Shown here one piece after another: positions 6,353-20,573 of a stretch of DNA of 20,925 nt. Source of the stretch: a virus. The notes under the pieces are model-generated. The model ran no database searches, had not been told where the DNA came from, and saw nothing but the letters and a program-made list of their open reading frames with translations. Position 1 is the first letter of the stretch. Each line of letters opens with the position of its first letter. The DNA is taken from positions 1 to 20,925 of IMG/VR virus record IMGVR_UViG_3300044990_000934, one strand, 5' to 3'. Made by a program: the position numbers and the translations under genes.

Positions 6353-6448
6353 GACAACTGAATAGGGCCGGACCTTTGGGCTGATCCCCCGAAGGCATGG
6401 CACAAGAAGGGCGCATCCGTCTAGGCGCGGGTGCGCCCTTTTTGTTTT
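6353..6448 (+). ncRNA. Candidate ~95-nt small RNA (promoter, hairpin, terminator unit)
   Basis: Between the terminase and portal regions a promoter (6319-6346) is followed by an 8-bp hairpin, CCTTTGGG (6373-6380) with CCCGAAGG (6388-6395; one G-U pair) around a 7-nt loop CTGATCC, and then by a terminator at 6409-6448. GCC (6367-6369) and GGC (6399-6401) could extend the hairpin past an internal loop. No ribosome binding site or sensible ORF lies inside; an ATG at 6397 reads through the terminator stem and is unlikely to be used. The unit could be a small regulatory RNA or a leader controlling read-through into the head genes. I cannot assign an RNA family. Confidence 0.5.
6409..6448 (+). terminator. 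Intrinsic terminator upstream of the head genes
   Basis: GGGCGCA (6409-6415) pairs with TGCGCCC (6432-6438) and is followed at once by TTTTTGTTTT (6439-6448). It ends the candidate small RNA and may partly terminate transcripts coming from the terminase genes, so head gene expression may need read-through or antitermination. Confidence 0.8.
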
Positions 6449-6477
6449 CCCCCGGCCCGAGTTCTATCAGGGGGCAA

Positions 6478-6807
6478 ATGGCGACAACCGACACACTACG
6501 CGCCGCACTGACCGCCGAGCTTTCGGAGCTGTGCCCGCTTGCTTCAAACCCCGTTGAGAACGCCGACCTCGCTATTGATATCGACGCCTATTGCAAGGCA
6601 CGCGAGGCCGAGCTGCTGCTTACCGCCAACCATCTTTCCAACCGCTCGCAGGCAGGGCAGACTTTCGGCTATCGGGACGCGGCATCGGCGCAACGCATGG
6701 CGCAGACCATGGCGGCAAAGCTGACCCGCGCCGGATTCTCTCTGAACGTTGGCGCGACGACGCTTGCCGATATGCGCGGACTGAGGGAGCAAAATGAGAT
6801 TCAATAA
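6478..6807 (+). CDS. Small protein at the head-tail-joining position (110 aa)
   Basis: ATG 6478 is preceded by AGGGGG and lies after the terminator; an in-frame ATG at 6397 would read through the terminator stem and is rejected. The protein is helical: DTLRAALTAELSELCPL, a middle AYCKAREAELLLTANHLSN and RDAASAQRMAQTMAAKLTRA, then a LGATT-like turn and a charged end. It occupies the slot that gpW has in lambda (between terminase and portal), but at 110 aa it is longer than gpW (68 aa) and shows no clear match. It overlaps the portal start by 14 bp. It could be a connector or chaperone; this is positional inference. Confidence 0.65.
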   Translation: MATTDTLRAALTAELSELCPLASNPVENADLAIDIDAYCKAREAELLLTANHLSNRSQAGQTFGYRDAASAQRMAQTMAAKLTRAGFSLNVGATTLADMRGLREQNEIQ

Positions 6808-8269
6808 AATCAGCTCCTATATCGCAAACTTGAGTGCGTCCATCATGGGGCGTGGCTATGACGCAGGCGATACCCGCTATTCTGATCATGGCCTTGGGTG
6901 GGATCGTGCGGGCAAGCATGACGAAGACCGTTACGTCACGGCCTGGACGCGGGACAAGATCCGCAGCTTGTGCATGGATGGGCGGCGCAATGACCCCCTC
7001 ATTCAGGCGGCTTGCAAGCGCATCGTTGACTTTTGCGCGGGCCCGGACGGGTTAATCTTGCAGGCGGCGACCGACAATGACGCCGTAAACGCCGAGTACG
7101 ACCAGTATTTCAAGGAGTGGTCCAACCGCTGCGACTTCCTCGGCGTCCTGTCTTTTGGCGATTATCAGCGGCTCATGATCGACGCTGACGAGCATTCAGG
7201 CGATTGCCTCATCATGCGCCTGTCCAACGGTCAGCTCCAGGGCATTGAGGGGGAGCACATTCGCCAGCCGCACAACGTGCCTGAAACCGCTTCGCAATAC
7301 GACGGAATGCGGCTTAACTCCATCGGGCAGATTACCGCCTTTTGCATCCATAAGCGCGACAAGTCCGGGCAGTTCAGCGGGCTTGACTACGAATGGGTTG
7401 ACGCCGCCGCCTGCTACCATTGGTCAGACCGTTGGCGCTTTGACATGATGCGCTCCTTGCCTGAGTTGGCTTGCGGCATCATCCCGGCGCGACACATCAA
7501 GGACGCCAACGATTCAACGCTCACACAGGTGCGGGCGCAGGCAAAGCCCGCTATGGCGACCGAGACGTTTACCGGCAACGTGGCCCCTTCTGGACGCAGC
7601 GCAGCCCGCACGGCTCAGAGCGTCAACAAGACCCGCGTGGAAGAGCTGGACGGCGCTACCCTGTACCACTTCCTTCAGGGAGAGGGCGGTCTTAAGTTCG
7701 CGGCTCCGACAACGCCGAACAGCAACCTGACCCCGTTCTTGACCTTCAATATGCGCCGGTTCGCGGCTATCACGGGCTTTGCCTACGAAGTCTTGATGCT
7801 CGACATGACGGGCGGCAACTTCTCGCAAAACAAGATGATGCGGTATTGCACTCAGGCGGCAATCGACACGAAGCAGAAGCGCCTCGCCAAGTTCGTGCAG
7901 TTCACGCGCTCATGGCAAATCGCCCGTGGTGTCGCCCGCAAAGAGATCCCGCCCGCCCCGTTCATCAAGGGCCGCTCGCAGTTCGCGGACGTTCGCGTGA
8001 TCAAGCCGCCGCAGACGTGGGCAGACGATGCCGACCAGATCGGCACGGACACCAAGGAAATTCAGGCTGGGCTCGCGTCCTACAGCGAGAAGGCGGGGCG
8101 CAAGGGGCAAGACATCGAGGAAATTTGGCGGCATAAAATCAGCGACTTGGTGCTCCTTAAAAAGCTGTGCGCGGAAGCGTCCAAGGATGGATTGCAAATC
8201 AAGCCTGAGGATATCGCCGTCATCAATCTGCCTGGCGCACAGGCACAACCGCAGCAGGCCGCACCGTGA
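6794..8269 (+). CDS. Portal protein, lambda (GpB) family
   Basis: The 491-aa protein has the sequence style of lambda-type portals: an N-terminal region with WDRAGKHDEDRYV and RDKIRSLCMDGRRNDPLIQA, the conserved 'RxNPxxxxAxxxxxxxxVG' equivalent (DPLIQAACKRIVDFCAGPDG), then GDCLIMRLSNGQLQGIEGE, HWSDRWRFD and PARHIKD, where lambda portals have 'xxxvxHl'. A later stretch FAYEVLMLDMTGGNFSQNKM corresponds to the 'lxxDxsxxNYSSxR' motif. Length agrees with the family (480-530 aa). The dodecameric ring forms the DNA entry vertex, docks terminase, and later binds the connector. The stop overlaps the protease GTG as GTGA. Confidence 0.93.
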   Translation: MRFNKISSYIANLSASIMGRGYDAGDTRYSDHGLGWDRAGKHDEDRYVTAWTRDKIRSLCMDGRRNDPLIQAACKRIVDFCAGPDGLILQAATDNDAVNAEYDQYFKEWSNRCDFLGVLSFGDYQRLMIDADEHSGDCLIMRLSNGQLQGIEGEHIRQPHNVPETASQYDGMRLNSIGQITAFCIHKRDKSGQFSGLDYEWVDAAACYHWSDRWRFDMMRSLPELACGIIPARHIKDANDSTLTQVRAQAKPAMATETFTGNVAPSGRSAARTAQSVNKTRVEELDGATLYHFLQGEGGLKFAAPTTPNSNLTPFLTFNMRRFAAITGFAYEVLMLDMTGGNFSQNKMMRYCTQAAIDTKQKRLAKFVQFTRSWQIARGVARKEIPPAPFIKGRSQFADVRVIKPPQTWADDADQIGTDTKEIQAGLASYSEKAGRKGQDIEEIWRHKISDLVLLKKLCAEASKDGLQIKPEDIAVINLPGAQAQPQQAAP

Positions 8270-9075
8270 AAAACGAGATCCGTTTACAGGCTAAATTGGG
8301 CGAGCCGTGGGCCATTCGCCCGCAGTCGCTCCACGCGTTTCTCGCCATGGAAGACGACCGGATGCCGTTGCGTGAAAAGGATGAGCACGCGCCCGCCATG
8401 CAGGGTGCCGTCGCCGTTGTGCCGCTCGTTGGCGTCATGATGCGCAACCCCGACGAAGTCGATTACATGCTCGGCGCGTGCAGCACAACCGCCTTTTGTG
8501 CCGCCATGAATGCCGCCGCCATGAATGCCGCCGCGTCCGCAATTCTGATCGATGTCGACAGTCCTGGCGGCGAGGCGCTCGGATGCGATGAGGCGGCTGA
8601 TGCGGTCAAGCAGGCGCGGGCAATCAAGCCCGTTGTGACCTACAGCGGCGGAATAATGGCGAGCGGCGCTTATTGGGTTGGATGCAATGCCGACGCCGTT
8701 TATGGGTCCGCGATGGCGCGAATCGGAAGCGTAGGTTGTTACGCGCTCTATCGCGACTACAGCAAGTATTTTGAGAACAGCGGCATCAAGTCTTTCCTCG
8801 TCAAGTCCGGCGACAACAAAGGCGACTTCGCGCAGGGGTTGCCTATCACGCAGGACATGATCGACGGAGCGCAGGCCCGCGTTGACAAGATCGGGGCTAT
8901 GTTCCGCGAATGCGTGAGCGCGGCCCGCCCGTCGATTGCCGCCGCCGATATGCAGGGCCAGGACTTCATGGGCGACGATGCGTTGAAAGCCGGTTTCATT
9001 GATTCGGTGTGTGGGTTTAACAGGGCGCTTGCCGATGCTGGAACATTGGCCCGTCTGCGCTCTGATCGTGGTTAG
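8266..9075 (+). CDS. Head maturation protease, S49 (SppA/gpC) family
   Basis: This 269-aa protein starts at GTG 8266, coupled to the portal. Family marks are ILIDVDSPGGE (about 93-103, the 'LdvdSPGG' oxyanion strand), GGIMASGAYWVG with catalytic Ser133, MARIGSVG (about 150-157), and KSGDNKGDF where Lys185 is the probable general base of the Ser-Lys dyad. There is no signal peptide or membrane anchor, unlike cellular SppA, which fits a procapsid protease. It would cleave the scaffold and possibly portal or capsid termini. Unlike lambda gpC/Nu3, the scaffold is a separate downstream gene (9601) rather than an in-frame C-terminal extension. A 15-bp tandem duplication at 8506-8535 adds an MNAAA repeat. 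Confidence 0.92.
   Translation: MKNEIRLQAKLGEPWAIRPQSLHAFLAMEDDRMPLREKDEHAPAMQGAVAVVPLVGVMMRNPDEVDYMLGACSTTAFCAAMNAAAMNAAASAILIDVDSPGGEALGCDEAADAVKQARAIKPVVTYSGGIMASGAYWVGCNADAVYGSAMARIGSVGCYALYRDYSKYFENSGIKSFLVKSGDNKGDFAQGLPITQDMIDGAQARVDKIGAMFRECVSAARPSIAAADMQGQDFMGDDALKAGFIDSVCGFNRALADAGTLARLRSDRG
8506..8535 (+). repeat. 15-bp tandem duplication within the protease gene
   Basis: ATGAATGCCGCCGCC (8506-8520) is followed by a copy differing at its last base (8521-8535). It encodes MNAAA twice just before the SPGG strand. It keeps the frame and probably arose by replication slippage. Confidence 0.85.
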
Positions 9076-9099
9076 TCGAAAAGCAAAAAGGAACAGAAA

Positions 9100-9591
9100 A
9101 TGAAGAAGTTCGTTGCGTTTATCGGGATTCTCGCGCTGGCGGTTTCGCTGGTGCAGGCGGAGAGCCAGACGTTCACGGTGTCGGTTGCCTCGAATCAGAC
9201 CGCCTTCACGGCCGCGCTGCCGGTTCACGGTGTGATTGATCGCGTCGAGCTGGTCCGGGCCGCGAGTGCGCCTCAGTGCGATGTCATCGTTGGCACGTTT
9301 GACGGCACGACCGTGATTGACACTTGGGTGAGCGTCCTGAACTGGGCCGAGGGCGGAGCCAAGGAGACGAAGGTGATTCGCCCGCGCCTGATCGGTACGG
9401 ACATCACCGGCACGGCCCTGACCTATGGTAGCGCCCTCCAGGTGACGAACATCACGCAGCAGCTCACGGCGACCTACGAGGCCCCGATGGCTGGCGGGAA
9501 CGTGTATGTGAAGCTGGTCAATGACGCGACCGGATCCAACATCACCGCGACGGTCAAGGGCACCATCTACTTCACCCCCGTGCAGCGGTAA
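9100..9591 (+). CDS. Beta-rich protein with Sec signal peptide inside the head module
   Basis: ATG 9100 follows AAGGAACAG. Residues 1-20 (MKKFVAFIGILALAVSLVQA) form a textbook signal peptide: two lysines, a hydrophobic core and a VQA cleavage site before ESQ. The mature part (about 143 aa) is beta-strand-rich with many Thr/Val and no cysteine motif (one Cys): TFTVSVASNQTAF, VIDRVELVRA, GNVYVKLVNDATGS, ATVKGTIYF. That is the style of phage decoration or spike-like beta sandwiches. It lies between the protease and scaffold genes, where a head decoration protein could lie, yet a secreted precursor is unexpected for a head protein. The alternative is a secreted moron product. No family is recognised. 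Confidence 0.75.
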   Translation: MKKFVAFIGILALAVSLVQAESQTFTVSVASNQTAFTAALPVHGVIDRVELVRAASAPQCDVIVGTFDGTTVIDTWVSVLNWAEGGAKETKVIRPRLIGTDITGTALTYGSALQVTNITQQLTATYEAPMAGGNVYVKLVNDATGSNITATVKGTIYFTPVQR

Positions 9592-9600
9592 AGGAGAATC

Positions 9601-10038
9601 ATGGAAACCCCCGTTCAACTGCTGGATAAGGCGAACGCAAGCCTTGCGACCTTGACCGCCGAAGTGGGTACGCTCAAGGCCGAGTCGCTCAAGTCGGCTG
9701 ACGCTATCAAGGCGCTCACCGGCGAACGCGACACGCTCAAGGCGCTGGCCGATGAGGCGTGCGCCAAGGTTGCCTCGCTGGAAGGCGAGAAAGCCACGCT
9801 GGCCGCGTCCATTACGGACCTGACCGGCAAGCTGGAAAGCGCCGAGGCGAAGCTGAAAGACCCCGCGCTGCTGGCCGCCGCCGCACTCGTGGCCGCTGCT
9901 CCCGTGGCGGGCTTGGGTGGCGAAGGCGCACCCCAGGCGTCGAATGCCGAGAAGACCAAGGAAATCGAATCGAAAATTAAAGCGACGGACAACGCCATGG
10001 AAAAGGCGACCCTCCGCGCTCAACTCCGCGACCTGTAA
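9601..10038 (+). CDS. Coiled-coil scaffold-like protein
   Basis: ATG 9601 is preceded by AAAGGAGAATC. Residues 1-87 are a continuous heptad-type coiled coil (ETPVQLLDKANASLATLTAE through ITDLTGKLESAEAKLKD), then an Ala/Pro/Gly hinge (PALLAAAALVAAAPVAGLGG) and a charged C-terminal helix (EIESKIKATDNAMEKATLRA). Lying directly between the protease and major capsid genes, with this architecture and 145-aa size, it is most likely the internal scaffold that templates procapsid assembly and is degraded by the S49 protease. The C-terminal helix would contact the capsid protein, as in other scaffolds. Sequence identity to known scaffolds is not claimed. Confidence 0.65.
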   Translation: METPVQLLDKANASLATLTAEVGTLKAESLKSADAIKALTGERDTLKALADEACAKVASLEGEKATLAASITDLTGKLESAEAKLKDPALLAAAALVAAAPVAGLGGEGAPQASNAEKTKEIESKIKATDNAMEKATLRAQLRDL

Positions 10039-10053
10039 GAAAAGGACACTCAA

Positions 10054-10938
10054 ATGGCTAACGTGACGTTTACGACTTTCACCCAGGAAGAGCGCATGAA
10101 GGATGCGTTCATCATGGCGCTGCGCACCAAGCTCGTCCCCATGGACGCCTTCACCACGAAGTTTGACCTCACGGGCAAGCGCGTGGGCGACTCCATCGTG
10201 GTCGGTAAGTACACGGGCGGCGTTGCTGCTACCCGCGTTCCCGGAGCTGCGGGCGTTGGCTCCGGCACCGTGGTTGGCGCGAAGCTGACTCTGCCCAACC
10301 CGACCTACGTTCAGTGGGGTATTCCCTCTGGCGTGGGTGGTGCGGAAGACTTTTTCCGCGTGGGCATGGACCAGATGAAGATCCTCGCAGCGGCGATTCT
10401 TGCGGTGCCGTTCGCCAAGATCACCTCGGCCAACTACGGCGACACCGTTGCCGACAAGCTGGTCAAGAGCTCCGGCGACTTTGGCCGCTCGGCTGTGGCC
10501 TCTCTCGGCAAGCTCGCCGCCGCCAAGGGCATTGACGGGAACATGGTCCTGAACAGCGCCTATTACTGGCAGCTCCTGACCGAGTACAGCGCGGGCATTC
10601 TGGACAAGGAAGCGTTCACATCCGGTATCCTGCCCATGCAGGCCGGAATGACCGCCTACCAGTATCCCGCGCTTCCCGCCAACAGCGAAGCCCTCGGCGG
10701 CGCGGTGTGTGCCAAGAGCGCCCTGCTGGTCGGTATGGCCCCGCTGCTGCCCGAAGGCAAGCCCGGCGACGGCGACCTGATCTCCTCGGAGATCATCACG
10801 GACCCCGATGGCAAGGTGGCTATGTGCTATACCCGCTGGTTCAAGAGCGATGAAAGCACCATGTTTGGGCGCTGCGAAGTCATGGCCGTTGCCGAAGTCG
10901 GTGACTCGAACGGCATCATCCGCATCGTGGGCGAGTAA
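10054..10938 (+). CDS. Major capsid protein (probable HK97 fold)
   Basis: ATG 10054 has AAAAGGA upstream. The 294-aa product directly follows protease and scaffold genes and precedes connector genes, the standard site for the major capsid protein. It begins MANVTFTTFTQEERMKDAFI and contains 'VPMDAFTTKFDL' and 'GKRVGDSIVVGKYTG' strands of an N-arm/E-loop type, an NSAYYWQLLTEYSAGI helix and a C-terminal EVMAVAEVGDSNGIIRIVGE beta end. Length agrees with HK97-fold capsid proteins without a fused delta domain. It should be the most abundant virion protein; its codon use is visibly biased towards GC-ending codons. The fold is inferred from context and length, not a recognised motif. Confidence 0.8.
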   Translation: MANVTFTTFTQEERMKDAFIMALRTKLVPMDAFTTKFDLTGKRVGDSIVVGKYTGGVAATRVPGAAGVGSGTVVGAKLTLPNPTYVQWGIPSGVGGAEDFFRVGMDQMKILAAAILAVPFAKITSANYGDTVADKLVKSSGDFGRSAVASLGKLAAAKGIDGNMVLNSAYYWQLLTEYSAGILDKEAFTSGILPMQAGMTAYQYPALPANSEALGGAVCAKSALLVGMAPLLPEGKPGDGDLISSEIITDPDGKVAMCYTRWFKSDESTMFGRCEVMAVAEVGDSNGIIRIVGE

Positions 10939-10947
10939 GGAACATCA

Positions 10948-11295
10948 ATGCCCGTCGATTTTGCCAACTTGTTTATTGCAGATCACGCGGTGGGAGCCGG
11001 TGAGCATTCCCAGGCGGTCGAGTTCGCTTCAAGCGGGCGCGGCCGTCCGGGCTTCACCGTCCCTGATGCCATTGTTGGCGATTTGCAGTTGGACGAAATG
11101 AGCAAGATCGACGGGGATCTCGAATCGTTTATCTCAACTCTCATTGTGCGCCGCTCCCAGTGTCCATATATCCCCCGCAAGGGGCAGCGGGTGACACTGG
11201 CGAGCGGGCGCGTTTGTTCCGTCGATACCGTCATGACTGAGGCAAGCGATGGGGTGACGCTCCCCATGCAGATAAGGGCGGAAGTCAATGGCTGA
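10948..11295 (+). CDS. Head-tail connector-type protein (115 aa)
   Basis: ATG 10948 follows AAGGA. The protein (MPVDFANLFIADHAVGAGEH) is beta-rich, with CPYIPRKGQRVTLASGRVCS, SVDTVMTEAS and a final VTLPMQIRAEVNG. A compact beta barrel of this size right after the capsid gene matches the lambda FII-type head-tail joining position. A 'P+kGD/Q xV' strand motif (PRKGQRVTLASG) is common in these small barrels. It overlaps the next gene by 8 bp. Assignment is by position and predicted fold. Confidence 0.6.
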   Translation: MPVDFANLFIADHAVGAGEHSQAVEFASSGRGRPGFTVPDAIVGDLQLDEMSKIDGDLESFISTLIVRRSQCPYIPRKGQRVTLASGRVCSVDTVMTEASDGVTLPMQIRAEVNG

Positions 11296-12061
11296 CGGAT
11301 TCGCCATCAAGGTTGATATGTCTGACTTCAAACGTGCTATGCATGAGTACGAAAAAGTCAGCAAGCGGGACTTTGCGCAGATCGTCACAAGCAAGCTGGG
11401 CAAGCTGGCTAAAGTTGCGGCTGGCATTGTGAAGCGCACGACGAAAGAGACCGTTGAAGCATTTAGGGAGTCTAAGCATTTTTGGGCATTCATCAACAAA
11501 GTCCGCAACAAGGGCATGAGCATATCGAAGCGGCGCAGGGCGAAGGGCGCGGAGATTGATAAACCGTACATCGACCTTTCAACTGGGAAAAGAATCAATG
11601 CCCGCAAGTGGATTCACGAAAAGCGGACCATCGGCGGCGCAGGCGCAGCGTCGGTGAAGCGGGAAAAGCTGACCCGTGAAATGAAGATGATCGCGCTGCG
11701 GGTGATCCGGCGTCGGGTGGGCAAGGTCAAGTCTTTCGTCGGGTTGTTTCTTAAGGCGTCTCATCTTTTAGGCGAGCGCGTTACGCAGTCTGACCTCGGC
11801 AAGAACGCGTGGAAGACGCAAGGAGTTGACGCGGCAAAGGCGGTTCCTGGCGGGAAGTGCATCGCTTATTTCACTTTACCGATTCGCGCCGATTTGAGGG
11901 AAACGGGCGAGGGCAACCGAAACTTGCGCGAACAGCAAAAGGTTTTGATGGTGAATCAGGCAATCGACATCGCCAAGCAAACGATCACGCGGGAAACGCT
12001 GGATGAAGTTCAGAAGCGCCTTGCCCAGTTGGCGATCAAGGCAAGCAAGAGGGCCGCATGA
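11288..12061 (+). CDS. Minor tail/tail-completion protein (gpZ or HK97 gp10-like)
   Basis: ATG 11288 overlaps the preceding gene by 8 bp and has AAGGGCGGAAG upstream. The N-terminus FAIKVDMSDFKRAMHEYEKV is the usual 'v.v.g..el...l......' opening of tail-completion proteins of the gp10/gpZ group, followed by helices rich in Lys/Arg (LGKLAKVAAGIVKRTTKETV). At 257 aa it is longer than HK97 gp10 (about 140 aa) and similar in style to minor tail protein Z. It is strongly basic, in keeping with a protein sitting on DNA at the head-tail interface. Gene order (connector, this, gpU-like, tube) supports the call. Confidence 0.65.
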   Translation: MADGFAIKVDMSDFKRAMHEYEKVSKRDFAQIVTSKLGKLAKVAAGIVKRTTKETVEAFRESKHFWAFINKVRNKGMSISKRRRAKGAEIDKPYIDLSTGKRINARKWIHEKRTIGGAGAASVKREKLTREMKMIALRVIRRRVGKVKSFVGLFLKASHLLGERVTQSDLGKNAWKTQGVDAAKAVPGGKCIAYFTLPIRADLRETGEGNRNLREQQKVLMVNQAIDIAKQTITRETLDEVQKRLAQLAIKASKRAA

Positions 12062-12528
12062 AACCGTTAAACATCAAGGGCAAAACCGAGACGGCTTTCC
12101 TGCGCATCCTCGAGCCGCTGAAAGACTCGCAAGACCTGTCAGGCTTTCAATGGGTTTGGCGTTTCTTCAGGGGGACGCTGAAGCAGAAGCGAATCAGCGT
12201 TGTGTGCGGCGTCCCGTCCGTTGCCGAGCGCCTGGAAGATAGCACCCCCTGGCTGTGGAATGTCCCCGTGATGGTTGAAGTTGTCACGGGTAAAAAGGCG
12301 ACGGAGCCGGAAGCGCATGACGAGTTTGCCGCAACCGTCCTTGAGGCGATATTCGACGGGTCCGATACCTGCGCCGCACTGAACGCCGCCATGGGGAACG
12401 AGGGCTTTAAAGCGTTTTCGTGGGCCATTCAGGACGGGCCGGAAGATGACATTGACGATGAAACGCGGCGCACAAAGACAACCGGAATTTTGATGATGAT
12501 GCCGTTCGCGGCGCAAACAGGAGCATAG
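12058..12528 (+). CDS. Tail terminator-type protein (gpU-like position)
   Basis: ATG 12058 overlaps the preceding stop as ATGA and follows AGAGGG. The 156-aa protein contains helical ETAFLRILEPLKDS and strands VPVMVEVVTG and TTGILMMMPFAA with a mid-helix AHDEFAATVLEAIF. A 'strand-charged helix-strand' alpha/beta layout with a long 'F...v..l...l' helix fits tail terminators, which cap the tube and join it to the head. The order just before tail-tube genes matches lambda (Z, U, V). No direct sequence match is claimed. Confidence 0.55.
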   Translation: MKPLNIKGKTETAFLRILEPLKDSQDLSGFQWVWRFFRGTLKQKRISVVCGVPSVAERLEDSTPWLWNVPVMVEVVTGKKATEPEAHDEFAATVLEAIFDGSDTCAALNAAMGNEGFKAFSWAIQDGPEDDIDDETRRTKTTGILMMMPFAAQTGA

Positions 12529-12531
12529 GAC

Positions 12532-12885
12532 ATGCCTACGATCAATGATGGAACAACTGTGCCTCTGACCGGTTTCCCCGGAACGCTCACCGGCACGACT
12601 CAACAGACCGTTGAGATGACCAACGGCATCCGCAAGACCGAGCGGGTTATGAATGAGAGCAACGAAGCGGGCGCGGTGGTTTTTACCGGCAAGCACAAGG
12701 ACGTTTCCATTTCGGGCATCATGCTCGCCACCAGTGCGCCTGCCCTGCGCATGTCCGTGCCGTTCGCCTACAACTCGGTGAACTACCGCACGACCGCGTT
12801 TAACGTGGCGAGCACCCGCACCCTGCGGCGCTTCGGCCTGACCGGACGCAAAGAGGCGTCCATGACCTACACCCTGCCCGCTTAA
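12532..12885 (+). CDS. Tail-tube-like protein, first of two paralogues
   Basis: ATG 12532 has AGGAGC and AGGAC upstream. The 117-aa product begins MPTINDGTTVPLTGFPGTLT and ends in beta strands: KHKDVSISGIMLATSA, YRTTAFNVASTRTLRRFGLT and GRKEASMTYTL. The last third aligns with the next gene: 'KxVSxxGxxL', then 'YxTxAxxxxSTxTLxRFxL' and 'KExSxTxT'. Small beta-barrel-like proteins in this position form the ring stack of siphovirus tail tubes. Tube identity is inferred from size, position and strand pattern. Confidence 0.6.
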   Translation: MPTINDGTTVPLTGFPGTLTGTTQQTVEMTNGIRKTERVMNESNEAGAVVFTGKHKDVSISGIMLATSAPALRMSVPFAYNSVNYRTTAFNVASTRTLRRFGLTGRKEASMTYTLPA

Positions 12886-12895
12886 GGATCACACC

Positions 12896-13246
12896 ATGAC
12901 AACGCCCTCCGTACAATATGCCACCGGCAAAGAGCCCGCCATCGGCTTTGCCACCGCCGCAATCGCCAACGCCTCGCGTGATGAGGAAAATGTCGTTGAG
13001 ACCGGCGATGTTGAAGAGGTTGAAGGCGAGGCGGGCGCGGTTGAGTCCGTCATCACATCGAATCTCGGCAAAGAAGTCTCCGTCAACGGAACCGCCCTTT
13101 CCGGCATGACGCTCCCCGAAATCGGAGACGCCTTGACCGCCGCCGACCTTGACGGGTATTGCACCGCCGCGTCAATGTCCAGCACCCCGACGCTTTCCAG
13201 GTTCAACCTCGGCGTGAAGAAGGAAGATTCCATAACGGTGACATAA
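12896..13246 (+). CDS. Tail-tube-like protein, second paralogue
   Basis: ATG 12896 follows AAGGATCAC. The 116-aa product shares its C-terminal half with the upstream gene: NLGKEVSVNGTALSGMTLPE against KHKDVSISGIMLATSA, and YCTAASMSSTPTLSRFNLGV against YRTTAFNVASTRTLRRFGLT. It differs by an acidic insert, DEENVVETGDVEEVEGEAGA (about residues 29-48). Tandem duplication with divergence could give a two-component tube, or one copy could be a tube and the other a decoration or initiator. The acidic insert could face the tube lumen or outer surface. The role is inferred. Confidence 0.6.
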   Translation: MTTPSVQYATGKEPAIGFATAAIANASRDEENVVETGDVEEVEGEAGAVESVITSNLGKEVSVNGTALSGMTLPEIGDALTAADLDGYCTAASMSSTPTLSRFNLGVKKEDSITVT

Positions 13247-13249
13247 TCT

Positions 13250-14035
13250 ATGTGGACGATTCACAAGGCGGCATTCTTTCCCTCTCCGGTGCGCATCTGC
13301 GGCGTTTCGCTGATGCCGCCTACCGTGGGGCATTATGCCATCCTTGAAGCCATAGAAAGCCCGTTTCTGTGCGGTGGCAACGCCAAGGCGGGCGACTTGC
13401 TCGGCACCGTGGCGCTGCTCTCCGTGAGCCACAAGACCGCCGCCGAACTGGTCCGGCGTCCGGCGCGGTGGGGATGGCGGCAGCGGGCGCTTGCGTGGCG
13501 TATGCGGCGCAAAAGGTTGACCCTGGAAGACGAGACCCGCCGCCTGTCCCGCTGGATGGCTGAGTGCGTTTGGTTCCCTGAACGGTTCAAAGACCCCGCC
13601 ACTGAAAAGCCGTCGTTCCCGTCATCCGTCCCGCACGCGAATAAGCTGGTCTGGATCTTGACCGAGCATTTCCCGAAAGCGGACGTGCTCGCCATGAACA
13701 TCATCGAGGCGCATTGCTACGCCTTGAGCCGCGCTGAAATGGTCGGCAATCAGTTTGAGACCTTGCAGGAATATCAACAGGTGTGGCTCCCCGAAGGATA
13801 CGCCTATCACCCGACTGAGTATCCCGAAATCAACGCGGCCAAGGAAGCGGTTACGCGGGCGGGCCTGCTGATGAAGGACGCCGGGGACGCCATGAATGCC
13901 GCCAAGGTCAGCGGGGATGACAAGAAGATTGAAGCCGCCAAGGACATGATGACCGCCGCACGCGCCGAAAACAACAAGGCGACCGAAGCCTATAAAACAG
14001 CCTGCTTAAATGCGGGAGGGGGACCGTATGCGTAG
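13250..14035 (+). CDS. Protein at tail-assembly-chaperone position (261 aa)
   Basis: ATG 13250 starts three bases after the preceding stop; the ribosome binding site is weak, so reinitiation may be used. The protein reads MWTIHKAAFFPSPVRICGVS, then LMPPTVGHYAILEAIESPFL, an 'xPxTxGHxxxLxxxxSPF' signature I associate with tail genes of phages in Gram-negative hosts. The C-terminal part from about residue 195 (INAAKEAVTRAGLLMKDAGD onward) is a coiled coil. It lies between tube and tape measure genes, where tail assembly chaperones sit. I did not find a convincing slippery site for a lambda G-GT type frameshift. The 3' end overlaps the next gene by 8 bp. Confidence 0.55.
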   Translation: MWTIHKAAFFPSPVRICGVSLMPPTVGHYAILEAIESPFLCGGNAKAGDLLGTVALLSVSHKTAAELVRRPARWGWRQRALAWRMRRKRLTLEDETRRLSRWMAECVWFPERFKDPATEKPSFPSSVPHANKLVWILTEHFPKADVLAMNIIEAHCYALSRAEMVGNQFETLQEYQQVWLPEGYAYHPTEYPEINAAKEAVTRAGLLMKDAGDAMNAAKVSGDDKKIEAAKDMMTAARAENNKATEAYKTACLNAGGGPYA

Positions 14036-14453
14036 ATTCATCCCATTGCTTTTCCTTGCTGCGTCCGCTTTTGGAGCCGACGAAATTGTCCTTTCCGCGT
14101 CCCTCAAGATTGCAAGCGGCAGCGTGATTCAGTCTCAGGCGTCTGGCGAGCTGAAATACGACATGACCGCCGCCACTCCGGTTTATGCGGGAGCCGTCAC
14201 CCTGCTATCGAACGCCACTACGCAGACCCTTGACGCCGCCGCCGTTGGCGATCCGGGCTACCTGTGGGCAAAGAACACCTCGACCAACGGCATCATCTAC
14301 GCTGGCCCCACGAATGCGGCTGGCACGCTGCTGCCCGTCATCGAACTGCGCCCTGGCGAGCTGCACATGATCCCGCGTGGGTCAGCCGATATGTTGTTTA
14401 CTTCCAGCGTCACGAATCTGACCGCGCTTCAGTGGTTTCTAATCACGCGCTAA
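14028..14453 (+). CDS. Signal-peptide protein with virion-type beta domain
   Basis: ATG 14028 is chosen over the in-frame ATG 14010 because a GGGAGGGGG site (14012-14020) lies between them and the second start gives a standard signal peptide: MRRFIPLLFLAASAFG then ADE. The 141-aa product has strands SGELKYDMTAATPVYAGAVT and YLWAKNTSTNGIIYAGPTNA, then LPVIELRPGELHMIPRG. This last pattern ('N-x-strand...LxPGExxxIP') resembles small phage beta proteins found near tail fibres ('xLKPGEFxxlR' type). It sits between chaperone-position and tape-measure genes. A precursor targeted to Sec in that slot is unusual. Confidence 0.72.
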   Translation: MRRFIPLLFLAASAFGADEIVLSASLKIASGSVIQSQASGELKYDMTAATPVYAGAVTLLSNATTQTLDAAAVGDPGYLWAKNTSTNGIIYAGPTNAAGTLLPVIELRPGELHMIPRGSADMLFTSSVTNLTALQWFLITR

Positions 14454-14465
14454 CGGGGGCAAGGC

Positions 14466-15860
14466 ATGGCAACCGTCAGAGTAGATATTGAGGGCAATTC
14501 CTCAGGGCTCACGAAAGAGCTGAAGAAAGCGGACGCCTCCGTCATGGACTTCGGGCGCGGGCTCTCGTCCATTGCCGGGAAGCTCGGCATTGCTTTTAGT
14601 GTTGGAGCCATCGTCAATTTTACGCGACATACTATTGCCGCCGCAGATGCTGTAGTAACCTATGCGAAGGGAATTGGCGAATCCGTGCAGGCTACGCTTG
14701 CACTTTCCAAGGCTGGAATTGAGTCAGGCGTTGCCCAGGAAAAGACCCTCGGTTGGTTGCAGAAAATCAAGGACGCGCAGGAAACCATTGTTAAGTCGGG
14801 GGGTAAGTCTCCGCTTGCCGCGCAGCTGGAAAGCATCAACATAAGCGTTGCCGAGTTTGTTAACATGTCTCCTACCGAAGCATTCAACGCCTTGACCGAG
14901 GCGGCTATCAAAACAGGCAAGGGCGTTTCAGTGTTGACCGACATTCTCGGTAAAATGTCGGCGTCCGATGCGATGGACATGAAGAGCATCATTGACGCGG
15001 CGGGAGGGTGGGACGTTTACAAGGCTGGCGTTGAAAGAGCTGCCGAGGCTACAAGGAAACTTGCCGACCAGCAGGACCGGATTGACAAACTCAAGGCCAG
15101 CGTTAGCGAAGCCGCTACCACTTGGCTTGGCGACCTGATTTCCCTTGCCGCAAAAAACAACGAGACAATGGGGCTTGGCGAAAACAACGCTGCCGGATTT
15201 CTTCCGGCCTTTTTTCAAAATCTTGACCCTTATTCGCGGGCTTACGCGCAAAACGGACTCGGCGTAAACACCCCGAATCTCAATGGAACAGCTGGCGCCG
15301 GAACCGGGGCAACTGGATCTGGGGCAGAAGAAAGCCCCGCCGCTCTCATGGCGCGGATTGCAACTGAAGCGGATGAAGCCGCCAGAGCCAAGCTATATGA
15401 CGCATGGAAAAACCGAAACACGATGGACGAAACAATCGCTGGCTATGGCGATGTTAAAACCATGAAGTCGATGCGGGAAGGCACGCGGATAGGAATCGAA
15501 GGCGACCGCAGCTGGATGAGCCCGCAAAAGTTGGCCGAAATGATCGCTTTTGAAAAAGCGTTAACCGCTGAAATCGAAAAGCGGGAAAAGGTTGAATCAG
15601 ACATTGCCGACAAGCGCCAAAAAATGATAGACGCAGCCGCCGAACAGCGCGAAACCGTCCGCATCAACACGAATAAAGCCATTGAGGGCATCACCGTTGG
15701 CGTCCCTCGCCTGAACGACATGGAATCCGTTGGCGCAATCATGGGCGGCACGGGCCGAGCGGCGGATAGCATGCAGCAGAGGCTCGACAAAATAGCCGAC
15801 ATCAATTTGAAGGCTACCGAAAGCCTAAAGTCTATCGACGAAACCCTGAAGGGGTCATAA
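14466..15860 (+). CDS. Tape measure protein (short)
   Basis: ATG 14466 is preceded by GGGGGCAAGG. The N-terminus ATVRVDIEGNSSGLTKELKK, followed by AFSVGAIVNFTRHTIAAADA, is the standard opening of tape measure proteins ('i.v.gn.sgl...l..a...'). The 464-aa chain is mostly helical and contains repeated amphipathic segments and one hydrophobic stretch around residues 35-60. Tape length sets tail length: at roughly 0.15 nm per residue (established estimate) it implies a tail near 70 nm, shorter than lambda's. The C-terminal third is charged and coiled (IEKREKVESDIADKRQKMID). There is a Gly/Ala-rich hinge near residues 270-290. Confidence 0.85.
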   Translation: MATVRVDIEGNSSGLTKELKKADASVMDFGRGLSSIAGKLGIAFSVGAIVNFTRHTIAAADAVVTYAKGIGESVQATLALSKAGIESGVAQEKTLGWLQKIKDAQETIVKSGGKSPLAAQLESINISVAEFVNMSPTEAFNALTEAAIKTGKGVSVLTDILGKMSASDAMDMKSIIDAAGGWDVYKAGVERAAEATRKLADQQDRIDKLKASVSEAATTWLGDLISLAAKNNETMGLGENNAAGFLPAFFQNLDPYSRAYAQNGLGVNTPNLNGTAGAGTGATGSGAEESPAALMARIATEADEAARAKLYDAWKNRNTMDETIAGYGDVKTMKSMREGTRIGIEGDRSWMSPQKLAEMIAFEKALTAEIEKREKVESDIADKRQKMIDAAAEQRETVRINTNKAIEGITVGVPRLNDMESVGAIMGGTGRAADSMQQRLDKIADINLKATESLKSIDETLKGS

Positions 15861-15861
15861 C

Positions 15862-16677
15862 ATGACGGATCCCACAGTCCAAGGGTCAACCGAGTTCACC
15901 TTGCGCCATCGCTACACCGCACGCGACATAGCGCGGGGCGTTGTCACTACCGAAGTGTGGAACGGGCTTTATTCCAGCCATGAGGAAAAGGCGCTTGACC
16001 TGTGGGCGGCAGGCGCGGTCAGCGTCACCCCATCCATGGGCGGCTCGGTCTGCACCATTACGGCCATTTTCGGCGGCACGCAGGGATCACAGGGCGGCGG
16101 GTCAGGTGGTGGCGGCACACCCGTTTCCATTGAGCCCATCACCGTCAGCTGGTCAGACGACCCGCACGTTTCAGAGGTGGACCTTAAGGGTATCCGCACA
16201 TGGGGGCTTGACGGGAATCCCCTTTCCGCTGACAACAAGGAACGCGCCCGCATCCTTAACTTGATCGACAAGTACATTTCATCGGGCCAGCTTGACCTTG
16301 TTTCGGCGCTGACTGACATTACCGACAATCAGAAAAAATATGGCATTATCAAGGCGTCCGGCATTAACGGGGCCTATCGGTCTACCTATGCCGTCACCAA
16401 GACAACGACATGGGCGCGGTTCAAGGACGCCAAAGGGTATGTCGATTACTCTAAGCAGCTCAAAGTTATTTCATGGGCCGAAGTCGGCGCACCGTCCGAT
16501 TACGACGAACCGCTTTATAGGGACATTGATATAAACGGAACTTGGGTAACGTCTCATTGCGAATGGCTTACCATGCCGCCGCGCAAGGGCTTGCAGGGGC
16601 GCGTCTTCACCGTGATTGAAACTTGGCTAGGGGCATACAAATGGAAGGCGGAACTTTATGACGGCGGCACAGGTTAA
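15862..16677 (+). CDS. Distal tail/baseplate-type protein with Gly-rich linker (271 aa)
   Basis: ATG 15862 starts one base after the tape measure stop. The protein has two parts: residues 1-71 (TEFTLRHRYTARDIARGVVT... VTPSMGGSVCTITAIFG), then a flexible linker GGTQGSQGGGSGGGGTP, then a beta/alpha domain with IEPITVSWSDDPHVSEVDLK and WVTSHCEWLTMPPRKGLQGR near the end. The first part looks like a small beta domain. Its position between tape measure and fibre genes fits a distal tail or baseplate hub component. I do not recognise a family. Confidence 0.6.
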   Translation: MTDPTVQGSTEFTLRHRYTARDIARGVVTTEVWNGLYSSHEEKALDLWAAGAVSVTPSMGGSVCTITAIFGGTQGSQGGGSGGGGTPVSIEPITVSWSDDPHVSEVDLKGIRTWGLDGNPLSADNKERARILNLIDKYISSGQLDLVSALTDITDNQKKYGIIKASGINGAYRSTYAVTKTTTWARFKDAKGYVDYSKQLKVISWAEVGAPSDYDEPLYRDIDINGTWVTSHCEWLTMPPRKGLQGRVFTVIETWLGAYKWKAELYDGGTG

Positions 16678-17998
16678 ACTCTTTGCGGTCTCTTGCCTTG
16701 TGGCGTCCTCGTGTTTCGCGCAACTCAACGTGCGAAACCTGACCGCGACAACGGCAGTTGAATCGGCGTCCATTCCCGCGTCCGTGCCGCTCCGGTGGTA
16801 TCGCGGGGAGTCCGTCAACTTCAACCACTGGTCAACGGAAGGCGGCACCGCGTGCGCCTGGACCAACCTCTCCAACCTCGTTGCCGTCTGGAGCCTGACC
16901 GCCAACCGCTCCGACGACCAGGACCCGGACAACTCCAACACCTACATGTGGGTGACGGGCGCAGTGACGGCGGCATCTGGCAAAGTGACATTCTCCGCGC
17001 AACCGAGTTGGACCGCCATGCCCGCTAGTAACTATTGGTCATTTGTCACCCTCTATCAAACGGACGCGCTCGGCTTGACCAACGAATACATCGGCGTCCT
17101 GCACCGCGCAAACGCCAACGTGCTCTATCGGGACACGGGGGTGAACTACGCTGGCCCGTGGGAAGTGCCGTCCAACATGGTTGACTCATACGCCCGCTCG
17201 CTCATCGCCGCAGGCGTCCCCGACTACACATCCCGCTCAAACACCGCCGCCATCTCCACCGCCCTGACCACCGAAACAAACCGCGCACAGGTTGCCGAGT
17301 CCGGCCTGTCCGCGTCTATCGCAGGGGTCAACGTGACGGCCACCAACGCCCTCACCAACTCCCTGCTCGCCATCGTTGCCGCTGCGTCTAAGCTCGGCGG
17401 GTCCGCTGTGACCAATGCCCTCGTTGACTACCTCGGCTCAAACACCGTCCCGCGTGCCATGGAAGCGATGTACCTGAAAGGAACGAATGCCAATTACAGT
17501 TGGGAAATGAACGGGGGCGTGCTGACGATTTACGAGGTGACGAATACGGTAAATGTCAGGGTGACGGCAACCAACAATTTAGGGCTTGGGTATAATGGGC
17601 CGCCTGTCGGAATGGTGTTCACGAACCCCGTTTGGAGCGCAGAAACAGTAACGTGGACGTGGGGCCAAAACGATTTTGACGGCGAGGGCAATATTGTTGA
17701 TCTGTCTTTCACCGGTGACGCCGACATTTTTGCCGCACAATCAGTTGCCTTAAATATTAGCGGGCTTGTCCCGATTAGAACGTGGAGCAGCTCTTCTGGT
17801 GCGCTTGTTCTTCAGCCGTCGAACGCTGGAGTTGGATCTCCGACCATCGCATTTGTCCCCGCAACCAACACCTACACCCTTGGCTTTTACGACTACGCCC
17901 CGAGAGACGCGGTGTCATTTACCAACGGGCTTTACGGCACGACCAACGCGGCAGTCCACACCGCCAACGGCACCAACTGGTATATCACTTTCGAATGA
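16658..17998 (+). CDS. Baseplate/fibre protein with Sec signal peptide and BppU-like domain
   Basis: ATG 16658 overlaps the upstream gene by 20 bp and has GGAAGGCGGA (16643-16652) before it. Residues 1-21 (TAAQVKLFAVSCLVASSCFA) form a Sec signal peptide with a CFA cleavage site. Next comes a domain starting PLRWYRGESVNFNHWST, through VWSLTANRSDDQ and GKVTFSAQPSWTAMPASNYW, the Ig-like pattern of baseplate upper protein N-domains ('yRGdxxxfxvxl'). Residues about 180-225 (AISTALTTETNRAQVAESGL) are the trimeric coiled coil of tail fibres. A beta-rich C-terminus (PSNAGVGSPTIAFVPATNTY) could bind a receptor. The signal peptide on a fibre-type protein is odd. Confidence 0.75.
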   Translation: MTAAQVKLFAVSCLVASSCFAQLNVRNLTATTAVESASIPASVPLRWYRGESVNFNHWSTEGGTACAWTNLSNLVAVWSLTANRSDDQDPDNSNTYMWVTGAVTAASGKVTFSAQPSWTAMPASNYWSFVTLYQTDALGLTNEYIGVLHRANANVLYRDTGVNYAGPWEVPSNMVDSYARSLIAAGVPDYTSRSNTAAISTALTTETNRAQVAESGLSASIAGVNVTATNALTNSLLAIVAAASKLGGSAVTNALVDYLGSNTVPRAMEAMYLKGTNANYSWEMNGGVLTIYEVTNTVNVRVTATNNLGLGYNGPPVGMVFTNPVWSAETVTWTWGQNDFDGEGNIVDLSFTGDADIFAAQSVALNISGLVPIRTWSSSSGALVLQPSNAGVGSPTIAFVPATNTYTLGFYDYAPRDAVSFTNGLYGTTNAAVHTANGTNWYITFE

Positions 17999-18798
17999 AA
18001 CACTTACTCGCCATCCTTACATTAGCCTGCGCCTTATGTAGCGTTCAGGGCGCGGTTGACGTTGTGCGCGGTCGCGTTTCCGACCTGACATGGGCCGGCT
18101 CAGGGTCAACGCGGGTTGCTACGTTCGGGTCAGCAGACGTGACAGACGGTCTTATCGCCCGCTGGACCGTGGCAGAAGGCGCCGGCACGACCGCCGCCGA
18201 TACCGCAGGCACGAACACAGCCTACTTCGTTGACGCGCCCGTGTGGACCAACAGGGCGGCTGGCAAGGGCGGGCTGTACTTCGATGGGGCAAACGATGCG
18301 CTTAGGTCGAGCACGTTGAATCTGTCCGCAACAAATCAAGTAACGCTCGCGTTCTGGATGAACTGGCGGACCTTTGCGAACAACAACGACCTCGCGTTTG
18401 AATACTCGGCTACAATGAACAGCGCACCGGCGTTCTACATTAACCCTAACAGCGGCGCACCCGCTTCCGGCAAGATGACGGCTGTAATGTCAAGCGGTGC
18501 GGGTCAATATAACGGGATTGCGGTAGACCGTCCCGCGTCAAACACTTGGTGCCACTTTACGGTAGTTCTGAATCGCGCATCCGGCGTGACGTGTTACAAG
18601 GACGGTGTTCTGTGCGCAACTACTCCCGCGTATACCAACACTTTGACCGGCAACTTTTCGGGGCTAGCCATCGGGCTCAACATGATGTCCCGAAACGGCG
18701 CGTCCCTGTTCGGAAACGGCTCGCTTCAGGACGTGCGAATCTACAACCGCGTGATTACGAGCAACGAGGCTTACACAATTTGGAACGCAACGAAATGA
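17995..18798 (+). CDS. Secreted LamG/concanavalin-like domain protein
   Basis: ATG 17995 overlaps the preceding stop as ATGA; the in-frame upstream extension is rejected. Residues 1-19 (MKHLLAILTLACALCSVQG) are a Sec signal peptide. The mature part has a beta-rich lead (about 20-50), then one LamG-type jelly-roll: DGLIARWTVAEGAGTTAADT, KGGLYFDGANDALRSS, VTLAFWMNW, NTWCHFTVVLNRASGVTCYK, DGVLCATTPAYTNT and LQDVRIYNRVITSNEAYTI, all typical strands ('lxFDGxxDyv', 'W.hva.v.dg', 'iddvRiYnRaLs'). Such domains bind glycans. It follows the fibre gene and is likely a receptor-binding or surface-adhesion factor. Confidence 0.85.
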   Translation: MKHLLAILTLACALCSVQGAVDVVRGRVSDLTWAGSGSTRVATFGSADVTDGLIARWTVAEGAGTTAADTAGTNTAYFVDAPVWTNRAAGKGGLYFDGANDALRSSTLNLSATNQVTLAFWMNWRTFANNNDLAFEYSATMNSAPAFYINPNSGAPASGKMTAVMSSGAGQYNGIAVDRPASNTWCHFTVVLNRASGVTCYKDGVLCATTPAYTNTLTGNFSGLAIGLNMMSRNGASLFGNGSLQDVRIYNRVITSNEAYTIWNATK

Positions 18799-19010
18799 AA
18801 ACTTTCCGCCGCCATAGTCAGTCCTCCCTCCGAAGCGTGTTCATGCCCACGCTTTTGCTGGCTATGGCGGCACTTCTCTCAGGATGCACGGCACCGCTCA
18901 TTCAGCGGACATATCCGATAACGGTCCTGCAAATCGGGTTTAACAGCGTGGATTCCGAGGTGTTGAAAGAAACACAGGTCAGCCCTCAACTGAAAGCGAG
19001 TTTGAAATGA
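18795..19010 (+). CDS. Small lipoprotein (71 aa) with type II signal peptide
   Basis: ATG 18795 overlaps the preceding stop as ATGA. A basic n-region (MKTFRRHSQSSLRSVF), hydrophobic core (PTLLLAMAALL) and lipobox LSGC (Cys31) define a lipoprotein signal peptide. The mature peptide has only about 41 residues (CTAPLIQRTYPITVLQIGFN...), mostly polar. Such small lipoproteins in late phage regions can be outer-membrane spanin subunits or receptor-masking factors. The absence of a proline-rich tail and of an embedded partner frame makes a lambda Rz1 analogy weak. It is coupled to the next gene by ATGA. Confidence 0.75.
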   Translation: MKTFRRHSQSSLRSVFMPTLLLAMAALLSGCTAPLIQRTYPITVLQIGFNSVDSEVLKETQVSPQLKASLK

Positions 19011-20185
19011 AGGCACGAGAAACACGCAGAAATGAAAAGGCTGATTCGCCTCGCGTGGGGAATTGGCTCAAATGGTTCACGGCAAAAAGGACTTGCCGAA
19101 ACTGGAAGCGTTTTAGCGGCATCGACGTTGCCGTAATCCTGCTTTTCGCCGCTTTGAACGTCAACGCCATGGGCTACCTGCCGAAGCGTGACCCTGCGCC
19201 TGACCCCGTTATTATCACCGCACCGACAAACGAGACGGGCGTTGAGACTGTCACGCCGCCATCCGCAACGGTTGACACAATCGCGGTAGGCTCGTTCTCG
19301 CGCCCGTCGATTGCGGTTGACGGCGAGACCGTCTATGTCGCCTGTGAAGGTCCGAAGATGCAGAGCCTCTATCAGTGGACGCGCACCGCTGGCACATGGT
19401 TTGGCGGGATCATCGTCAAGGCGTCACCGCAAACGGCTATGCGGACCTACGTTGCCGACACCCTTCCGGGCTTCACCTCGTTTCGCTACGGCAAGAAGGA
19501 TGGCGGCAAGTTTCATGGTCCTGGATTATTTGCAGACGGAAAGGAATCATTCGTGGGCCTGACAACCGGAGCGGCACGGCTGGCGATGTCAAAGGACGGG
19601 CCGATCCTCATGAGCAAAAACGGGGAATGGAAAAACCTCAGGACGGGTCAGACGGGCAAGTACAACGCGGGGAGCACCGGCGAGAAATACGACTTTGCGA
19701 TTCAGGACGGCAAATGGGCAACGGTGGTCAACGGGTATAGCAAAGATCCGTCGTCAATCTCGTATGACGGCAAACGGGTTGTCGCATTTGATTACAACAC
19801 CTTCAAGGATCAAGGCTCAGACCTCAATTATCCGTCGATCCTGATTCACTCAGGCGCAGTCTGGATGGCGTCTGTGCATAGCGGACGGTTGCGCCTTCAG
19901 TGTCTCAAAGACGGCAAGCTGCGGTGGTCCGCTACCAAACCCGCCAACATCGGAGACGCCACTATGCAACAGCGTTGCCCGCCTCGCCTGACGGCTATCA
20001 GGGGGCGCGTGGTGGCAGTCTGGCAGTACAAGGGGTCCATCATGCAGGTGGACGTTGAAAACGCTTTGGCGGGCCAAGCCAAGCCCGTTGCCGTTTGCCG
20101 TGGGACCATGCCGGACGTGTCAGGGCCGCACATGGTCTATCTGGACGGCGGGGCGGTCAAACACCGGACGCTTAAGGGGGAATGA
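19007..20185 (+). CDS. Membrane-anchored beta-propeller-like protein (392 aa)
   Basis: ATG 19007 overlaps the lipoprotein stop as ATGA. A basic 38-residue leader (two clusters of Lys/Arg) precedes one hydrophobic helix at about 39-55 (GIDVAVILLFAALNVNA), so the protein is either a signal anchor or has a long signal peptide. A Pro/Thr-rich linker (PKRDPAPDPVIITAPTNETG) leads to five or six propeller-like repeats: SRPSIAVDGETVYVAC, YDFAIQDGKWATVVNG, YPSILIHSGAVWMASVHSGR, CPPRLTAIRGRVVAVWQYKG and SGPHMVYLDGGAVKHRTLKG ('P.l....G.vwva'). Exported propellers often bind carbohydrate or protein. A fibre or surface decoration role is possible. No family is assigned. Confidence 0.7.
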   Translation: MKARETRRNEKADSPRVGNWLKWFTAKRTCRNWKRFSGIDVAVILLFAALNVNAMGYLPKRDPAPDPVIITAPTNETGVETVTPPSATVDTIAVGSFSRPSIAVDGETVYVACEGPKMQSLYQWTRTAGTWFGGIIVKASPQTAMRTYVADTLPGFTSFRYGKKDGGKFHGPGLFADGKESFVGLTTGAARLAMSKDGPILMSKNGEWKNLRTGQTGKYNAGSTGEKYDFAIQDGKWATVVNGYSKDPSSISYDGKRVVAFDYNTFKDQGSDLNYPSILIHSGAVWMASVHSGRLRLQCLKDGKLRWSATKPANIGDATMQQRCPPRLTAIRGRVVAVWQYKGSIMQVDVENALAGQAKPVAVCRGTMPDVSGPHMVYLDGGAVKHRTLKGE

Positions 20186-20189
20186 CGCG

Positions 20190-20573
20190 ATGAACGGACA
20201 GGCAAAGGAAAAGATTGAGCGTACACGGGAGTACGTTTTGGCGAGCAACCTGGCCGACGAGGCCAAGGACGGCCTGGGCAACCTGCTCGACGCCGGGGCC
20301 AAGGCGGCGAACGGGGCACCCGACAAAATTCAGGCCATTGCGGACGCACTTATGGAGCTTATCCTCCACGAGGTCAAGCAGGCGGTCCGCTATCCTGAAA
20401 CGTTCAAGAAGGCGGTGGAGGCGCATGCGTTGACCTGCCCGCTCAACACCCCGGCCGGGAAGCTCGGCGTGGCGTTCCGGTTCCGCTGGCCCATCTGCGT
20501 GTTCGCCTCCGTTGCCGTGTTCTCGCCCAACTTCGGGCGGCTGGCCGAGCTGATCAAAGGGCTGATTCGATGA
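20190..20573 (+). CDS. Hypothetical membrane-associated protein (127 aa)
   Basis: ATG 20190 has AAGGGGG (20174-20180) nine bases upstream; the longer in-frame reading overlaps the propeller gene by about 130 bp and is rejected. The protein starts MNGQAKEKIERTREYVLASN, with amphipathic helices (KIQAIADALMELILHEVKQA), and has one hydrophobic segment near the C-terminus (WPICVFASVAVFSPNFG, about 101-117). It could be a holin-like or lysis-accessory protein, but one segment preceded by about 100 soluble residues is not typical. The end overlaps the next start as ATGA. Confidence 0.6.
   Translation: MNGQAKEKIERTREYVLASNLADEAKDGLGNLLDAGAKAANGAPDKIQAIADALMELILHEVKQAVRYPETFKKAVEAHALTCPLNTPAGKLGVAFRFRWPICVFASVAVFSPNFGRLAELIKGLIR

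Follow-up and report, generated by a model that had tools for sequence, protein, structure and literature searches.

The stretch of DNA analysed here (the window) comprises the complete linear IMG/VR record IMGVR_UViG_3300044990_000934 (20,925 bases), and it carries a tailed-phage late operon in which four genes begin with predicted Sec signal peptides. These genes start at positions 9100, 14028, 16658 and 17995 (their products are called SP9100, SP14028, SP16658 and SP17995 below), and they lie among genes for the portal, the head protease, the likely major capsid protein and other core components that carry no such signal. An earlier note on this DNA had offered two outcomes, namely virion parts that are added by way of the envelope, or late secreted factors. 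What both share, the export of virion-type proteins from a late operon, now appears well supported by the sequences, while the step from other phages to the window phage is made by analogy. We propose a model in which the operon encodes a cytoplasmic core together with Sec-exported outer accessory proteins, the fibre and decoration types of which join the particles at lysis; in our judgement this model has about an even chance of being correct.

Signal peptides in the late operon

As the earlier note had stated, all four proteins start with a positive n-region, a hydrophobic core and small residues at -3 and -1, the features of a Sec signal peptide. With the predicted cleavage site marked by a slash, the N-termini read MKKFVAFIGILALAVSLVQA/ESQT (gene 9100), MRRFIPLLFLAASAFG/ADEI (14028), MTAAQVKLFAVSCLVASSCFA/QLNV (16658) and MKHLLAILTLACALCSVQG/AVDV (17995). 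Scored by a home-made rule that considers n-region charge, hydrophobic core and A-x-A-like site, they reach values of 11.9-16.0 (Table 1). When the same rule was applied to a stretch of Escherichia coli K-12, secreted proteins scored 11.5-15.4 and lipoproteins 11.0-12.8, and none of the proteins classed as cytosolic reached 11; the integral membrane protein yccA scored 13.9, and the rule alone cannot tell a cleaved signal from a membrane anchor. After shuffling of the N-termini of the window proteins, 1.7% reached 11.9, and shuffles of each signal protein's own first 60 residues gave the p values listed in Table 1. Among the annotated late genes of four named phages, 2 of 70 scored above 11.5. 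In the window 5 of 25 genes pass, which at a chance rate of 1.7% corresponds, by simple arithmetic, to a probability of about 1e-4. The scores of the four window signals are comparable with those of E. coli secreted proteins and exceed most shuffles.

Two further genes, both absent from the earlier note, extend this group downstream. The gene at 18795 encodes a lipoprotein signal (LLLAMAALLSG/CTAP, score 14.2) with the lipobox LLSG/C. A weaker lipobox, VASS/C, is seen in SP16658, for which lipoprotein processing is possible. The protein encoded at 19007 has a hydrophobic segment behind a long charged n-region and is a possible sixth signal-bearing product; its match to PF10647 is weak (E=0.021) and it is perhaps a beta-propeller.

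The signal genes are tightly embedded in the operon. The gene at 14028 overlaps the one before it, and its ATG is preceded by a strong Shine-Dalgarno-like sequence (GGGAGGGGG); 16658 overlaps the gene at 15862 by 20 bases, and 17995 and 18795 both begin in 4-base overlaps. Promoter- and terminator-like sites are no commoner in the window than in shuffled sequence, and the signal genes resemble their neighbours in guanine-cytosine (GC) content and third-position GC. The overlaps, the lack of an excess of promoters or terminators and the neighbour-like composition show that these genes are not separate, independent morons, and readings of the signals as coincidence or as morons only are unlikely. 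The earlier description, which placed them outside any moron block and among protease, scaffold, tape measure and fibre genes, stands as regards the moron block and the S49 protease, which is confirmed, as are the portal and both terminase subunits. Its label 'scaffold' for gene 9601 and its label 'tape measure' for gene 14466 are drawn from position and shape; Pfam and PHROG comparisons gave no convincing family match for either gene.

The mature parts are of several types. SP17995 matches PF13385 (E=5.2e-18) and PHROG 8510, a virion structural protein (E=6.3e-11). Single-sequence models, both too low in confidence to support a fold comparison, predict mostly strands for SP9100 (predicted local distance difference test, pLDDT, 40) and for SP14028 (pLDDT 45). 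The place of SP9100 between the protease and capsid genes would be a frequent one for a decoration protein.

SP16658 shows a pattern of variation that bears on its function. Contig L002, from another metagenome sample, is otherwise almost identical to the window over 13.5 kb. Between 3824 and 17286 the two differ only at seven positions within 58 bases of the capsid gene (10653-10710), a cluster suggestive of a short tract exchanged within a putative surface region. From 17287 onwards (breakpoint 17287-17373) they diverge, and SP16658 is unrelated to its counterpart from about residue 240, with the N-terminal part, signal peptide included, unchanged. The L002 contig stops 163 bases past the aligned part with the SP16658 reading frame open to its end, and it is possible that the difference reflects a chimeric contig end. 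A constant N-terminal and an exchangeable C-terminal part are what a receptor-binding fibre would have, since the receptor-binding fibres of sister phages vary by such C-terminal replacement; the comparison, made with one partner contig, therefore supports SP16658 as a putative receptor-binding fibre with an exchangeable tip.

Signal-bearing and naked forms in other phages

Because the window proteins lack informative relatives, other phages were used as the test. A fibre domain (alignment A6) is found with a signal in six loci (L204, L213, L214, L217, L238 and L271) and without one, or naked, in six phage contigs (L247-L252). The naked proteins start M-F/Y-Q-I/V, and this start aligns exactly to the mature start of the signal-bearing forms. 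The gene before the fibre likewise carries a signal in L238 and lacks one in L250 (20% identity, E=0.001). In the comparison of L204 with L217, the signal regions are 60-65% identical and the mature parts, in two of three proteins, 91-92%; as they change fast and keep their character, these segments behave as signal peptides. Naked fibre-domain genes also occur in L266, a contig binned with Omnitrophota, and in L270, from the Nitrospirota phylum, so that host phylum alone is not decisive for the presence of a signal. The domain was not found in 398 genomes from the phylum of G391 (drawn from an alphaproteobacterial locus), in 44 from the phylum of L107 or in 199 from an acidobacterial phylum, although such emptiness proves little. 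SP16658 was considered as a member of this family and rejected (probability 0.1% against alignment A6).

A second family leads to the same picture. In prophage L271, carried by a genome of the Nitrospirota phylum, signals are found in the gene at 11776, which adjoins the capsid gene, in the fibre-type genes at 8609 and 7986, in 5452, and in 3030, which adjoins a tube-like gene; no signal is seen in the portal, MuF-like, capsid, adaptor-like, tube-like and chaperone-like genes. The positions of the signals mirror the layout of the window. The same late operon encodes a pectate-lyase-like protein (L271:9424-11004; G955:C12) with a twin-arginine-like signal, RRSLTRRQFVLG, that starts with an RRQF motif. 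For the 5452 protein, named or environmental phage records contain ten full-length relatives, and in all six that were examined (Lacusarx, Citromicrobium phage RXM, Microcystis phage Mae-JY04, Pseudanabaena phage Pam2 and two Manatee Spring phages; 41-64% identity) the annotated start, MSK, coincides with the post-signal start of the L271 protein. As the relative in Sphingobium phage Lacusarx is annotated 'head protein', this alignment (A7) indicates that a protein of virion type also exists in a form to which an export signal has been added. The earlier note had held that relatives without the hydrophobic N-terminus would refute the signals. Such relatives do exist in these families of other phages, and they do not refute the signal there, since it has been gained or lost on an otherwise same protein body.

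Relatives of the terminase pointed to prophages of Omnitrophota; a terminase scan of GTDB genomes returned none with a single-sequence query and generic terminases with an alignment query. Several Omnitrophota prophages carry two or three consecutive signal-bearing genes on the same strand in the interval between terminase and portal. The cassette of L204, L213 and L217 consists of a small protein, a LamG protein and a repeat-rich fibre, and that of L136 (= L214) of a 508-residue protein and a 154-residue fibre, all of them signal-bearing. Across the Omnitrophota and Nitrospirota prophages, the signals are thus found in fibre, lectin and decoration-type genes, and the adjoining portal, adaptor, capsid and tube genes have none. 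A further phage contig has two signal-bearing genes on the opposite strand of the same interval (L030:3009-6338).

The gene directly after the Omnitrophota cassettes encodes a head-tail adaptor (PHROG 118) that is extended at its N-terminus by an additional domain of about 95 residues, and in the remaining Omnitrophota prophages the match is to the adaptor part of the profile only. The same extra domain (50% identity over 112 residues, E=3e-31) precedes a tail-tubular-protein-like adaptor in L238, an unrelated podophage-type prophage, where the adaptor gene directly follows a signal-bearing fibre (47% identity to the L214 fibre) and two further signal-bearing genes. One N-terminal domain is therefore present on two unrelated neck adaptors (L238:13331-14251 and L213:6986-7489), and the enlarged adaptor is found in five phages with signal-bearing fibres, from two lineages. 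Since an adaptor is a natural docking place for neck fibres, it may link the exported fibres to the particle. Beyond the window, we tentatively extend the proposal, at somewhat less than an even chance, to tailed phages of several diderm phyla, which would finish their particles outside the cytoplasm with outer proteins exported through Sec (one apparently through Tat) that attach during or after lysis, some of them through the adaptor docking domain.

Layout and relatives of the window

All late genes are on the plus strand and occupy the window from about 3867 to its end (Table 1), with several tail-type genes between the likely capsid gene and SP14028. Terminase, portal, head protease and capsid genes in one operon (PHROGs 57, 15, 21 and 53; the capsid assignment is weak) identify a tailed phage, predicted to have an HK97-type head and to be siphophage-like. 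Upstream of the terminase genes lies a metallophosphoesterase-like gene (2319-3254; PHROG 7339, E=9e-9). On the minus strand, a 589-codon open frame (8284-10053) is antisense to the protease and SP9100 genes and is probably a by-product of high third-position GC.

A near-DNA search with the whole window found no named phage closely related to it, and SP9100, SP14028, SP16658 and the capsid protein, used as queries in protein searches, gave no match either. Scans of viral contigs with the capsid protein, SP14028, the terminase and SP16658 returned near-identical contigs only; contigs with relatives of the window proteins number two, both near-identical. Sequence searches of the PDB with SP16658 and SP17995 gave nothing useful. 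The large terminase subunit forms a long isolated branch in the terminase tree, by which host placement was not achieved.

Table 1. Late-operon features of the window; own-shuffle p values refer to the first 60 residues of each protein
Feature	Positions	Strand	Basis	Signal peptide
Terminase small subunit	3867..4325	+	PHROG 57, E=8.4e-19	none
Terminase large subunit	4322..6103	+	PHROG 15, E=3.7e-117	none
Protein at head-tail adaptor position	6397..6807	+	precedes portal gene; no family match; extra domain not seen	none
Portal protein	6794..8269	+	PHROG 21, E=4.5e-44	none
S49-type head maturation protease	8266..9075	+	PF01343, E=1.1e-21; PHROG 53, E=1.7e-53	none
SP9100, 163 residues	9100..9591	+		9100-9159; score 16.0; own-shuffle p=0.004
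Coiled-coil-like 145-residue protein, scaffold position	9601..10038	+	sequence; PHROG matches weak, no Pfam match	none
Likely major capsid protein	10054..10938	+	position; weak phmmer match to 706-residue protein of phage contig L072, E=0.002	none
261-residue protein	13250..14035	+	overlaps start of SP14028	none
SP14028, 141 residues	14028..14453	+	directly before tape-measure-like gene	14028-14075; score 12.8; own-shuffle p=0.037
Tape-measure-like 464-residue protein	14466..15860	+	position and length; no family match	none
Tail-type 271-residue protein (g15862)	15862..16677	+	position; no family match	none
SP16658, fibre-like, 446 residues	16658..17998	+		16658-16720, or lipobox VASS/C; score 11.9; own-shuffle p=0.040
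SP17995, LamG-domain (lectin-like), 267 residues	17995..18798	+		17995-18051; score 13.7; own-shuffle p=0.019
Predicted lipoprotein, 71 residues	18795..19010	+		lipobox LLSG/C; score 14.2
392-residue protein	19007..20185	+		single hydrophobic segment around residues 39-54, either a signal anchor or a long signal peptide
127-residue protein	20190..20573	+	no Pfam match	one hydrophobic stretch

Particle or envelope

In the model proposed here, the core (portal, protease, capsid, tube and tape measure) would be assembled in the cytoplasm, and the outer accessory proteins, decoration-, lectin- and fibre-like, would be translocated through their Sec signal peptides, lose the signal and fold in the periplasm or on the envelope. 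Holin, endolysin and rupture of the envelope would then bring the particles into contact with the periplasm, where at least the fibre and decoration types would attach. We infer export and cleavage from the signals, and a particle or receptor function, with attachment to the particle, from the protein families, from the extra adaptor domain and from the module swap. As for the window's own signal proteins, their families, their position and the module swap suggest that they are virion parts.

A number of observations weigh against this model. Most of the related prophages lack a signal-bearing cassette, and the Omnitrophota and Nitrospirota cases are metagenome-assembled genomes. The window signal proteins have no relatives outside the two near-identical contigs, and SP9100 and SP14028, when compared with their positional counterparts in L271, showed no similarity. 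Moreover, the interval between terminase and portal contains a signal-bearing outer-membrane beta-barrel (PF13505) in a phage contig (L024:12268-13032) and a signal-bearing CBM96 protein with a PEP-CTERM motif in a prophage (L107:12116-12781), both of which are plainly cell-surface proteins and not virion parts. Envelope proteins at the same locus lend weight to an alternative that we hold to be doubtful, in which the exported proteins never enter the virion and instead, in the periplasm or at the surface, mask receptors, exclude phages or keep released particles off debris, a late need that would explain their place in the operon. The lipoprotein in the 3' block of the window fits such a role, and a receptor-binding fibre with a C-terminal swap suits receptor masking. 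However, the families of the mature parts occur naked in the late operons of other phages, and signal-bearing fibres coincide with an enlarged neck adaptor, which points to the particle.

The four proteins might also differ in their fate. SP9100, SP14028 and SP16658 could be exported virion-type proteins and the stretch from 17995 to 20573 the start of a lysis or surface-modification block with a lectin, a lipoprotein and a membrane protein. Signal genes do cluster towards the 3' end, together with the 71-residue lipoprotein, which has the size of an o-spanin, and the 127-residue protein with its hydrophobic stretch, but no lysis family was matched in Pfam or PHROG and the contig stops before a clear lysis gene; we regard this division as improbable. 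It is very unlikely that the hydrophobic N-termini are anchors or assembly segments that insert into capsid, neck or tail with no export at all. Own-composition shuffles give some of them modest p values (0.02-0.04), and the scoring rule is compatible with uncleaved anchors. Nevertheless, the segments end in cleavage-like sites, one of them a lipobox, and in other phages relatives lack the segment with the rest of the protein unchanged. There, the segments also change quickly yet stay signal-like, and L271 has one of the twin-arginine type.

Some late proteins of tailed phages are known to use the host Sec system. The endolysin Lys44 of Oenococcus phage fOg44 is exported with a cleaved signal peptide, and the exported endolysins of phages P1 (Lyz) and 21 (R) are of the signal-arrest-release kind (PMC6116005). 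The window proteins share with these the use of Sec by late gene products of a tailed phage, but those are lysis enzymes and the window's are putatively of the fibre or decoration type; Pfam and PHROG comparisons revealed no peptidoglycan-degrading domain in the four proteins, which were thus rejected as exported endolysins. The coat proteins pIII and pVIII of filamentous phages are virion components that are synthesised with cleaved Sec signal peptides. Filamentous phages, however, are put together at the inner membrane and leave the cell by secretion, whereas the window phage is tailed, with portal, terminase and head protease, and the presence of portal and terminase led us to reject coat proteins of the filamentous type. 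Lom and Bor of phage lambda, Cor of N15 and Llp of T5 are phage-encoded exported envelope proteins that act in lysogenic conversion or superinfection exclusion, and the L024 barrel and the L107 PEP-CTERM protein may be of this kind. The window genes differ from them in being interleaved and overlapping with core structural genes, and in including a fibre-like protein whose C-terminal module has been swapped. The naked L247-L252 proteins and the Lacusarx 'head protein' family share their mature sequences with the forms in L204, L213, L214, L217, L238 and L271; they have no signal peptide and are unrelated in sequence to the window proteins. A limited literature search, in which few subscription journals were covered, found no report of fibre or decoration proteins of tailed-phage virions with cleaved signal peptides.

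According to the standard teaching, tailed phages are assembled in the cytoplasm, and assembly ends before lysis. With prior export of outer parts, virion maturation would include a step outside the cytoplasm, with folding in the periplasm and a new point of interference between host and phage. If the parts stay on the envelope, the same fibre families would double as particle parts and as exclusion proteins. As far as the literature searched goes, either outcome would be new for such families, and outer proteins of uncultured phages may be spotted as the signal-bearing members of their late operons.

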